Part shown: one piece after another, positions 57,392 through 60,103 of the stretch
Layout: each line of letters opens with the position of its first letter
Position numbering within the stretch: the stretch's first letter is position 1
Notes under the pieces: model-generated
Database searches by the model: none
Told to the model about the DNA's origin: nothing
The model's input: the letters and a program-made list of their open reading frames with translations, nothing else
Assembly (NCBI RefSeq): GCF_900105595.1
Contig: NZ_LT629784.1
Coordinates: 2,046,001 to 2,110,000, forward strand
Direction: 5' to 3'
From: Stappia sp. ES.058
Lineage (GTDB): Bacteria > Pseudomonadota > Alphaproteobacteria > Rhizobiales > Stappiaceae
DNA length: 64,000 nt
Translations under genes and position numbers: made by a program

Positions 57392-58348
57392 TCATGGCTG
57401 GCCCAGCCGCAATCCGAAAACCGGGCGCAACCGGAAGGCATGCCATGGCGATGACGCGATACGCGCGACAATCGAGGGACCGCAGACCGCCTCCAGACGC
57501 TCGATGAAGGCCCGCATGCCATTATCCACGGCAGCATTGAACCCCTCGTGGCGCGACCCCACCTTCAACCCGATCGACGGGTTGGTGTTGATCTCGTAAA
57601 CGGCAAGCCGGCCGTCGCGAAACCCGAAATCGGCCCGACCGTAGTCGATGCCGGCTTCCTCGAACGCGGGCCGCAGCAGCTCCGCATGCGGATTGGCCGC
57701 CATTTCGGCAACGATTCCCTCGAACTCCGCATCCGTGGCGAGACCGCGCTGCCCGTATTTCACGAAAGGGCTGCCTTCCATCACCGTGTTTCCCGGCAGC
57801 ATCACGTCACCGACGCGGTAGATCGTATGACGCCGGTAGACCCCGTCGCGCACGGGTGTGTTGGCGAACTCGGTCACCAGCACGCGCGTCAGCGGGACGC
57901 CCTCGCTTTGAACCTTGTCGAGATAGGTCTCCAGCGCGGACTGATCCTCCAGCAATTCGAAAAAGTGCTGACTGTGCCCCTCCTCGCATTTCAGAAAGAC
58001 GGGGAACCGCTCCGGACACGGACGCTGGGCCGCCGGATAGACCCGGTAGTCGTTGATGCCCAGGCGATGAAGCGTGCACAGCAGATCGTAGCGCAACAGC
58101 ACAAGAGCCGGATCGTTGAACACCCGGACCCCGGCGTCGCGCAGCCTGCGGCAGACCTTTGCCGCCTCGGCGAGCTCGAAATAGCGCAGCCGGTCGAGGT
58201 CCGTGAACACGCAGGCGCTGGTCTCTATCCTGCTCTGGCGAAACAGCCAGTCGTATGTGCGCCCAGCCATCTCGAAATTGCGGTACGGCGACTTGCGAAT
58301 GCCCTTGAGCGTATAGGCGTGTTCCGCCGTGGTGATGAAATGAATCAT
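57392..58348 (-). CDS. ATP-grasp enzyme, candidate peptide-modifying ligase
   Basis: 318 residues, not a known housekeeping ligase. The central part has an ATP-binding lysine strand (FPVFLKCEEGHSQHFFEL, K120), and the C-terminal part a metal site of the form ADFGFRDGRLAVYEINTNPS (D240, E252, N254 are the expected magnesium ligands). The N-terminal 100 residues have no family I recognise. It is divergent from the repeat-peptide gene at 58477 with 128 nt between them, next to an HExxH-type enzyme. ATP-grasp enzymes cross-link peptides in graspetides or add amino acids in other peptide pathways. Start chosen at MIHFITTAEH. Confidence 0.8.
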   Translation of the reverse strand: MIHFITTAEHAYTLKGIRKSPYRNFEMAGRTYDWLFRQSRIETSACVFTDLDRLRYFELAEAAKVCRRLRDAGVRVFNDPALVLLRYDLLCTLHRLGINDYRVYPAAQRPCPERFPVFLKCEEGHSQHFFELLEDQSALETYLDKVQSEGVPLTRVLVTEFANTPVRDGVYRRHTIYRVGDVMLPGNTVMEGSPFVKYGQRGLATDAEFEGIVAEMAANPHAELLRPAFEEAGIDYGRADFGFRDGRLAVYEINTNPSIGLKVGSRHEGFNAAVDNGMRAFIERLEAVCGPSIVARIASSPWHAFRLRPVFGLRLGQP

Positions 58349-58476
58349 GACGCGATACGATAGCCTCCAGGCGAATGCGACGCCCCCGGTTGCAACAAGC
58401 GAAAACCGCAAGGATGGTTTGAATGCCAACATCGGCTGTGCTACGGATTTGTAGCAATATTTACAAGGTAGGTATC

Positions 58477-58800
58477 ATGTCCTTTCTCGTTTCGCTTGAC
58501 ACATGCAAGACGCTTGGCAACCGCTTGGCCGGGAAACAAATGGTCGGGGCTCCGAAGTTCGGACCGGTGAAGCCGACAATTTCCGGCGCCGGCGAGAGCG
58601 ACGGAACCCTTTCGCTTGACGCTGCCAAGGTGCTCGGCACCCGCCTGAGTGGCGCCAGCATGGTCGGTATAAGCAAACCCGGTGGCATAGCGATCTCCGG
58701 CGCGGTCACACTCGACGTCAGCAAGACCCTCGGCGCGCGTGTCGCCAACCCGCAGATGGTTGGCTCATCCAAGCCCACCGTTGAGACGACTGAGGACTGA
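58477..58800 (+). CDS. Three-repeat small protein, candidate multicore RiPP precursor
   Basis: 107 residues made of three repeats. Repeat 1 (residues 5-28) is VSLDTCKTLGNRLAGKQMVG plus APKF; repeat 2 (45-68) LSLDAAKVLGTRLSGASMVG plus ISKP; repeat 3 (77-100) VTLDVSKTLGARVANPQMVG plus SSKP. The consensus is [VL][ST]LDxxKxLGxR then MVGxxKP; an ISGA-type tail follows repeats 1 and 2 (ISGAGES, ISGAV). No signal peptide, membrane segment or catalytic motif. AAGGTAGG precedes the ATG. Neighbours are an ATP-grasp and an HExxH gene, so a modified peptide precursor is the best guess. No family recognised. Confidence 0.7.
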   Translation: MSFLVSLDTCKTLGNRLAGKQMVGAPKFGPVKPTISGAGESDGTLSLDAAKVLGTRLSGASMVGISKPGGIAISGAVTLDVSKTLGARVANPQMVGSSKPTVETTED

Positions 58801-58840
58801 TCTCAGGGTTGCCCGCACAGGCGGCCAGTCGACATCAGGA

Positions 58841-58870
58841 GGCGGCGGATGACAATCCGGCGCCTTTTTT
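58841..58870 (+). terminator. Hairpin plus T6 between the repeat gene and the HExxH gene
   Basis: GGCG-G-CGGAT, GACA loop, ATCCG-G-CGCC, then TTTTTT: a 4+5-bp stem with one G-G mismatch. It ends about 107 nt before the HExxH ATG and about 70 nt after the repeat-gene stop. It can act as a partial terminator, giving more precursor than enzyme. Confidence 0.65.
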
Positions 58871-58976
58871 CTGCCCCGCGCGGCAAATCTCGCCACGCTT
58901 GATCAACGATCATGAAACCGCGCCCCTCCCGCCTGGTCGGGGTCGCGGTCACGCTTTTCCGTTTCAGGATCAACCG

Positions 58977-59999
58977 ATGTCCGCTTCCCTCTTCCTGCCT
59001 GGAAAAAACGCCGCCATTCGCCACCTTTGCGCGCTGCACGGGAGGTTTCGGGAAAGCCTGTCGCATCTTTTCGAGCGGTGCCATGGACATGTCGACGTCG
59101 ACCGCTCGCGCGCAGACATGCTGCTCGCCCGGCTCGATCAGTCGGAACGCATTCCGCCCGCCCTCTTCGGCACCTATTTCGATGCAATCGATGCTGTCGC
59201 CGCACAGGATCTCGCAGGATTGCAGCACGCGATTGACGATCTGCTGACGTACGACCTGGCGACGGCACCCCCGGCGCTGCAACTGCGTCCGCTGAACCGC
59301 GACGCCTTCAGCCTGGAAGGCGAGGCGGCGTTGCGCCGGCAATTCGTCTCCGAATCGCTCCATGACCGACAGCTTTCGCATCTGGTTGGAGGCGATTGCG
59401 ACGCGGCGCTCGGCAAATTGCACGAGAGCCTTGCGCTCCTGCGCGAACACGCGCCCAAAACCTACGGCGAAATGGAAACCCTCGTTTCGGAGATCGTTCC
59501 GGCACATGGGTCCATTCACAACGGACTGGAGTTCGACGGCGCCAGTAGCCTGAAACGCTGGGGAACGGTGCTGATCAACATGAACCGCGGCCGCGGCAAG
59601 ATCGCGCTTGCCGAAACGCTGGTGCATGAAGCCGCGCACGGCACGCTTTTCGCCATGTCGCCGGTGGAGTTCTATGTCCTCAACGGGGCGGAGAAACGCT
59701 ATGCATCGCCATTGCGCATCGACCCGCGACCGCTTGACGGCATCTATCACGCCACTTTCGTTCTGGCGCGCATGCATTTCGCCATGCGCGAGCTGATAGA
59801 CGCTCCGAACCTTTCCGCCGATGACAGGGCGGAAGCTCGCGAGCTTGCCGGGCAAAGCCGCATCGGTTTCTCGGACGGATACGAGGTGCTGGCGGCCCAT
59901 GCGGACTACACGCCCACGGGACGACAGATCATGGAAGAAACCCATGCCTACATGCAGGCGCTGGAACCGGCACAGGCCGCTGCGCCGATCAGGCCATGA
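58977..59999 (+). CDS. HExxH-motif protein, peptide-modification (beta-hydroxylase-like) family
   Basis: 340 residues. The metal site is LAETLVHEAAHGTLFAMSPV (H217, E218, H221), followed by YASPLRIDPRPLDGIYHATF with H258 and FVLARMHFAM. This series (HExxH, SPLRxDPRPLxGIxHxxFV) matches the HEXXH motif domain family, which occurs in peptide natural-product loci and whose members are now regarded as 2-oxoglutarate-dependent peptide hydroxylases. Start at MSASLFLPGK, with AGGAT 6 nt upstream; longer in-frame upstream sequence overlaps the terminator hairpin. The substrate is inferred to be the repeat protein. Confidence 0.8.
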   Translation: MSASLFLPGKNAAIRHLCALHGRFRESLSHLFERCHGHVDVDRSRADMLLARLDQSERIPPALFGTYFDAIDAVAAQDLAGLQHAIDDLLTYDLATAPPALQLRPLNRDAFSLEGEAALRRQFVSESLHDRQLSHLVGGDCDAALGKLHESLALLREHAPKTYGEMETLVSEIVPAHGSIHNGLEFDGASSLKRWGTVLINMNRGRGKIALAETLVHEAAHGTLFAMSPVEFYVLNGAEKRYASPLRIDPRPLDGIYHATFVLARMHFAMRELIDAPNLSADDRAEARELAGQSRIGFSDGYEVLAAHADYTPTGRQIMEETHAYMQALEPAQAAAPIRP

Positions 60000-60026: not shown

Positions 60027-60103
60027 TGGTCGGGGCAGCAAGATTCGAACTTGCGACCCTCTGCTCCCAAAGCAGATGCGCTACCAGGCTGCGCTATACC
60101 CCG
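60027..60103 (-). tRNA. tRNA-Pro (anticodon TGG)
   Basis: 77 nt with encoded CCA. Starts CGGGGTATAGCGCAGC, anticodon loop TTTGGGA (anticodon TGG), T-arm AAGTTCGAATCTT. Confidence 0.96.

Follow-up and report, generated by a model that had tools for sequence, protein, structure and literature searches.

Three adjacent genes in the genome of Stappia sp. ES.058 (a single contig of 4.63 Mb) encode a putative ATP-grasp ligase, a small protein built of repeats, and a protein with an HExxH motif, and the question they raise is whether the two enzymes modify the repeat protein as a ribosomally made peptide (RiPP). The window, that is, the whole stretch of 64,000 nucleotides that was analyzed, is the reference for coordinates below unless a locus (L) or genome (G) is named. 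Our analysis places the locus in a real, conserved family of RiPP-type cassettes; the cassette is probably self-contained, with the 107-residue repeat protein as its precursor.

The Cassette and Its Genomic Site

All three open reading frames reported in a preliminary description of this DNA are present as annotated there. The ATP-grasp gene (57392..58348, minus strand; 318 aa) runs leftward; the genes for the precursor-like repeat protein (58477..58800, plus strand; 107 aa) and a predicted αKG-HExxH peptide hydroxylase (58977..59999, plus strand; 340 aa) run rightward. The repeat protein contains three units of 24 residues, SLDTCKTLGNRLAGKQMVGAPKFG (58492..58563), SLDAAKVLGTRLSGASMVGISKPG (58612..58683), and TLDVSKTLGARVANPQMVGSSKPT (58708..58779), all on the plus strand, with ten positions identical in all of them and an identity sum of 39 (maximum of 19 in 100 shuffles). 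A chance open reading frame or chance repeat was rejected on the basis of the shuffles, flank controls, and conservation.

The cassette is bordered on the left by an NDUFS4-family gene (PF04800; 56948..57253, minus strand) and on the right by a tRNA-Pro gene (60027..60103, minus strand), and computational comparison within the genus shows it to be present or absent at this one site. Among 14 genomes of the genus, the NDUFS4-family gene turned up in 13 and the ATP-grasp in four. In the occupied sites (the window, L120, and L121) the interval from NDUFS4 to tRNA-Pro is 2.6–2.8 kb and contains the cassette; in nine of the ten cassette-less genomes it is 180–351 bp (flank alignments cover six of the ten empty sites). 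The tenth (G001) has an interval of 1165 bp holding a different open reading frame (L118:2119-3033), for a hydrophobic protein of 304 aa, which makes the site a possible insertion hot spot. In the fourth genome with the ATP-grasp (G007), the contig breaks off inside the ATP-grasp gene and no NDUFS4 was found. Neither an integrase nor an end repeat was seen at the insertion site, and the two cassette ends share no 10-mers. The tRNA-Pro gene is inverted relative to NDUFS4 in several genomes of the genus.

Family Assignment of the Two Enzymes

The HExxH protein is a clear member of TIGR04267 (98.8 bits; cut-off 40), a model that matches all 23 HExxH family sequences at E 0.01. It combines an HEAAH metal-binding motif (residues 217-221; 59625..59639, plus strand) with an SPxRxDxRPxxGxxH block, SPLRIDPRPLDGIYHA (residues 244-259; 59706..59753, plus strand), that aligns to the ChlB HExxH domain, whose fold its predicted structure also matches. 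By both HMM and fold it thus belongs with the αKG-HExxH peptide hydroxylases (the ChlB HExxH domain, BpmH, PflC/PosC, and PesO). Available sections of the literature name His, Asp, Phe, Gln, and Pro as the residues hydroxylated by this family so far (PMC13060819), and radical SAM, MNIO, or asparagine-synthetase-like enzymes as its partners (PMC12636437, PMC13060819); a partner of the cassette's ATP-grasp type was not found described in open-licence PMC literature. HExxH is also the zincin motif, and the family member PflC can cleave, oxidatively or hydrolytically, according to the sections available of PMC12636437. That the cassette protein is a zinc protease, processing the peptide and not hydroxylating it, we regard as very improbable. 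The family is broader than the cassette: in a sample of 385 genomes of the class, six have a cassette-type ATP-grasp, 11 have TIGR04267, and three have both, so that eight of the 11 lack the ATP-grasp. In one of the three (G282) the nearest genes of the two kinds lie about 190 kb apart.

The ligase has a predicted ATP-grasp fold, with conserved acidic/Asn metal-site residues, and its best fold matches are RimK, LysX, and ArgX. Curated models of Pfam and NCBIfam do not recognize it as an ATP-grasp above threshold. At E 0.01, none of 25 sequences of the family matches any Pfam family or an NCBIfam ATP-grasp model; the single NCBIfam match among them is to an unrelated methyltransferase model (E 0.006). 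Graspetide membership was tested with the graspetide synthetase model TIGR04187, which likewise matches none of the 25 at E 0.01. Even at E 1, a search of the window's genome with this model returned two sub-cut-off matches, neither of them the window ATP-grasp. Another ATP-grasp of that genome (G000:C1:71761-72684; L135) scores 231.8 bits with it, below the cut-off of 350.

RimK, LysX, and ArgX add amino acids to protein carboxylates, and the predicted fold would lead one to expect carboxylate-amine ligation here also. A direct extension of this chemistry, in which free amino acids would be attached by the ligase to a carboxylate of the peptide (C-terminal or side-chain), has those fold matches in its favor, and we consider it unlikely. 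Identity to the three enzymes is about 15%, and the apparent substrate differs in being a dedicated precursor encoded alongside. An ATP-grasp family unrecognized by the curated Pfam and NCBIfam ATP-grasp models is now tied to a defined, recurring peptide family.

Recurrence of the Pair and the Putative Precursor Family

A scan of one-per-species genomes with a profile of the 25 ATP-grasp sequences gave 85 relatives, of which the best 80 were kept and L086 was added; L082, L084, and L085 were dropped as repeats of L002–L004 (equal scores and, in two cases, contigs of equal length), as were the window's own copies (L001 and L083). An HExxH relative is present in 49 of these 81 loci (best 80 of 85 relatives plus L086) and absent in 32. 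The association, shown by computation, takes three forms: 34 pairs are divergent, 14 tandem, and one convergent, all within 1546 bp, and no single open reading frame among the loci fuses the two enzymes. Pairs occur in at least the Pseudomonadota and Verrucomicrobiota. On the ATP-grasp tree the label of pair or solo changes six times (shuffled mean 25.7), so pairing with HExxH is clustered but not restricted to one clade. One locus contains two pairs about 4 kb apart (L036:6989-14009).

A search of 5.8 billion proteins with the window's repeat protein found only the protein itself, and its matches in Pfam and NCBIfam are all sub-threshold. Relatives were therefore sought through neighbors and motifs, and its family membership rests on motif and position. 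Small open reading frames of a common style lie in the divergent gaps or, in tandem loci, just upstream; 52 candidate precursors, with uncertain starts, were picked by eye from candidate lists, in 44 of the 49 HExxH-bearing loci and in the window. The five loci with no named precursor are L028 (inspected), L026 and L030 (where a contig end falls just upstream of the HExxH gene), and L058 and L059 (outside the inspection by eye). Ten of the 52 were scanned against family models; NCBIfam at E 0.5 gave no family for these ten, and Pfam gave three weak matches to unrelated families (best E 0.026). The strings SKLLGF, KLGAKVG, GAKIGAK, GSKIGGK, and GAKVGGK are absent from the open-licence PMC literature searched.

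Many precursors start with (K)IxLDxSKLLGF and continue in Gly/Lys stretches such as AKLGGKVGGKVGNK (L014), SVGAKLGIKVSAKVGGKPVEK (L070), TGAVKPAGAVKPAGAVKPVGG (L011), and MAGQKPVGRKP (L006); the group nearest the window (L003-L008 and L050) has LDxSKLLGxxxxGxxMxGxxK. The least alike picks are L017, L060, and the Hyphomonas-type loci L047, L056, and L063. In the candidates of this last type, which lie upstream of HExxH (for example, L056:5235-5405), LLGF/YSN is followed by KNDTMVGCKGG, which contains a Cys, and the C-terminus is basic and aromatic.

Mechanical motif scans show the same enrichment. The leader-type motif occurs in 24 of the 34 divergent gaps (0.05 expected from shuffles; 1.2% in flanks), and in 28 of 49 loci with HExxH versus none of 32 without it (Fisher p 9e-9, the loci not being independent). 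A looser GxKxG pattern discriminates less well (30 of 49 versus 7 of 32); neither pattern was found in 12 of the 49. The check that the preliminary description set, for homologous loci that keep the three genes together and differ in repeat number, comes out positive: precursors are named in 44 of 49, and repeat number varies from one to four units per open reading frame. The substrate proposed earlier, the repeat protein, is still the best reading, and we infer that the precursor peptide is acted on by both enzymes.

Gene neighborhoods bear on a different reading, in which the substrate of the ATP-grasp would be a glycan or lipid of the cell surface and HExxH alone would act on the peptide, or the peptide would be grafted to a glycan through Lys. 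ATP-grasps without HExxH often stand beside glycan genes: a cluster with a PF13480 acetyltransferase as representative occurs in 12 of the 32 loci, and two glycosyltransferase clusters in nine and eight (clusters were annotated from one representative each). In five tandem loci (L040, L047, L056, L058, and L063) HExxH and ATP-grasp are separated by a PF13440 flippase-like gene, and such a gene is found in five loci without HExxH. Together with the six label changes on the tree, these neighborhoods make a glycan link a live rival; we nevertheless judge it quite unlikely, as glycan families are rare in the divergent cassettes (a glycosyltransferase cluster in two of 34, L043 and L061, and flippase and acetyltransferase clusters in none of 34, all lower bounds, some genes having escaped the greedy ORF caller) and the leader motif accompanies the ATP-grasp/HExxH pair, not the solo ATP-grasps. 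Mesorhizobium-type relatives of the ATP-grasp (L025:6574-10934 and similar loci) have glycosyltransferases and a PF13480 acetyltransferase, with no HExxH or leader-motif ORF.

In the 34 divergent loci, families other than those of the two enzymes recur in four loci at most, all counts being lower bounds, and a private protease or exporter is therefore not evident; the most recurrent are an ABC ATPase cluster (four) and a short-chain dehydrogenase cluster. Single-linkage clustering of neighbors also produced one 17-locus cluster, mostly antisense to the ATP-grasp (15 of 20 members), which was set aside.

Possible Chemistry and Related Systems

The tails of all 52 precursors contain Lys and Gly, and no other residue is in all 52 (where the leader pattern failed, in five of the 52, the whole ORF was counted as tail). 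Counted with 10 near-duplicate rows left out and lysines of repeated leader motifs included, the tails hold 255 lysines, 56% of them preceded by Gly at −2 and 48% followed by Gly at +2. On this composition, Lys could plausibly be the modified residue and the likeliest site of the ATP-grasp reaction, a suggestion to which we give slightly less than even weight. Asp and Glu are absent after the motif in five of 52 precursors (L007, L042, L043, L051, and L061; L002 was excluded from this set, the pattern having skipped its first, degenerate unit), and the leader-motif Asp is replaced by Asn in L021, L027, and L043. An internal acidic donor therefore appears not to be generally available, the leader-motif Asp perhaps excepted. 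In the Stappia precursor both acidic donors and acceptor-type residues are present, and the leader Asp could serve as donor.

One rival reading is a graspetide-type pathway like that of corallotide, in which the ATP-grasp would crosslink Asp/Glu of each unit (for example, the Asp of LDxSK) to Lys and the oxygenase would then hydroxylate the crosslinked residue. The Stappia residues would allow it; the Asn-bearing leaders, the acid-free tails, the failure of TIGR04187, the model named for CorB, to match the window ATP-grasp, and the lack of Pfam or NCBIfam ATP-grasp matches across the 25 family sequences (E 0.01) argue against it, and we regard it as unlikely.

The reading we prefer is the self-contained RiPP cassette, and it is this reading as such that we call probable. 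In it, the LDxSKxLG motif would be a short, leader-like recognition element and the GxxK(P) stretch after each copy a core; the αKG/Fe HExxH enzyme would hydroxylate core residues, and the RimK/LysX-like ATP-grasp would activate a carboxylate to form an amide (or ester) involving core lysines. That carboxylate would most likely not be supplied by the core itself.

A more novel reading, to which we give well under even weight, is that the cassettes represent a RiPP class of their own. Their RimK-like ATP-grasp would use lysine side chains of GxKxG/GxxKP cores to accept a carboxylate from outside the peptide, which might belong to an amino acid, a glycan uronate, or some small acid; this would go with αKG-HExxH hydroxylation and take the place of the internal crosslinks by which graspetides are defined. 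In some tandem loci, a polysaccharide-type flippase would help to export the product or fix it to the cell surface.

RiPPs, αKG-HExxH hydroxylases, and ATP-grasp ligases are each already known; the ATP-grasp/HExxH pair is apparently undescribed, and no description of the pair, the cassette ligase family, or the precursor family was found in open-licence PMC literature. The preliminary description had recognized no system with this combination and precursor; within our searches that holds for the enzyme pair, but corallotide already combines an ATP-grasp, a 2OG/Fe(II) oxygenase, and a repeat precursor. As described in the available sections of PMC13097080, corallotide (graspetide group 15, recorded there only in Corallococcus) has a ligase of TIGR04187, an oxygenase of PF13640, a KxxxD motif, and a beta-lactamase gene, and its long precursor carries repeated Lys-containing motifs, each repeat being modified. 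The cassette differs in its ligase (no TIGR04187 match), its oxygenase (αKG-HExxH), its motif (LDxSKxLG with GxKxG/GxxKP), and its range, the pair being found in at least the Pseudomonadota and Verrucomicrobiota. Corallotide is thus the nearest published logic in the literature searched, realized with enzymes of other families.

Microviridin cores have acidic and Thr/Ser/Lys crosslinking residues; the cassette tails are Gly/Lys-rich, and in Stappia the leader-like motif is itself repeated. Multicore microviridins do resemble the cassette in having several cores per precursor and an ATP-grasp enzyme, as far as the sections available of PMC5934393 describe them. RiPP enzymology would gain a ligase-plus-HExxH pair from the cassette, which with its two enzymes is small enough for reconstitution in E. 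coli.

The earlier view that each repeat is a core needs amending, as a repeat seems to be more than that: in many loci the LDxSKLLG part is present as a single copy near the N-terminus, in the manner of a leader motif, with one GxKxG stretch or several after it. With each LDxSKxLG read as leader-like and the next GxxK(P) stretch as core, the Stappia precursor would be three leader-core units in a row; both here and in L055, the leader-like motif is repeated along with the Lys stretch. Such a unit, multiplying as a block, offers a direct way into the co-evolution of recognition motif and core. The window's precursor has three units and that of L055 four; L003 and L004 have two, as does L002, whose first is degenerate (SISPSKVLG), and each ORF of L005-L008 has one. 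A codon-position test on two precursor pairs gave three synonymous and five nonsynonymous changes in one and two and one in the other, too few changes to read. Separate precursor genes also occur, two each in L006, L013, L021, and L033 and four short ones in L027; those of the verrucomicrobial loci (L027:585-1581 and L021:1177-2619, the latter with extra ATP-grasp pieces) are short and have LNWGKLLG leaders.
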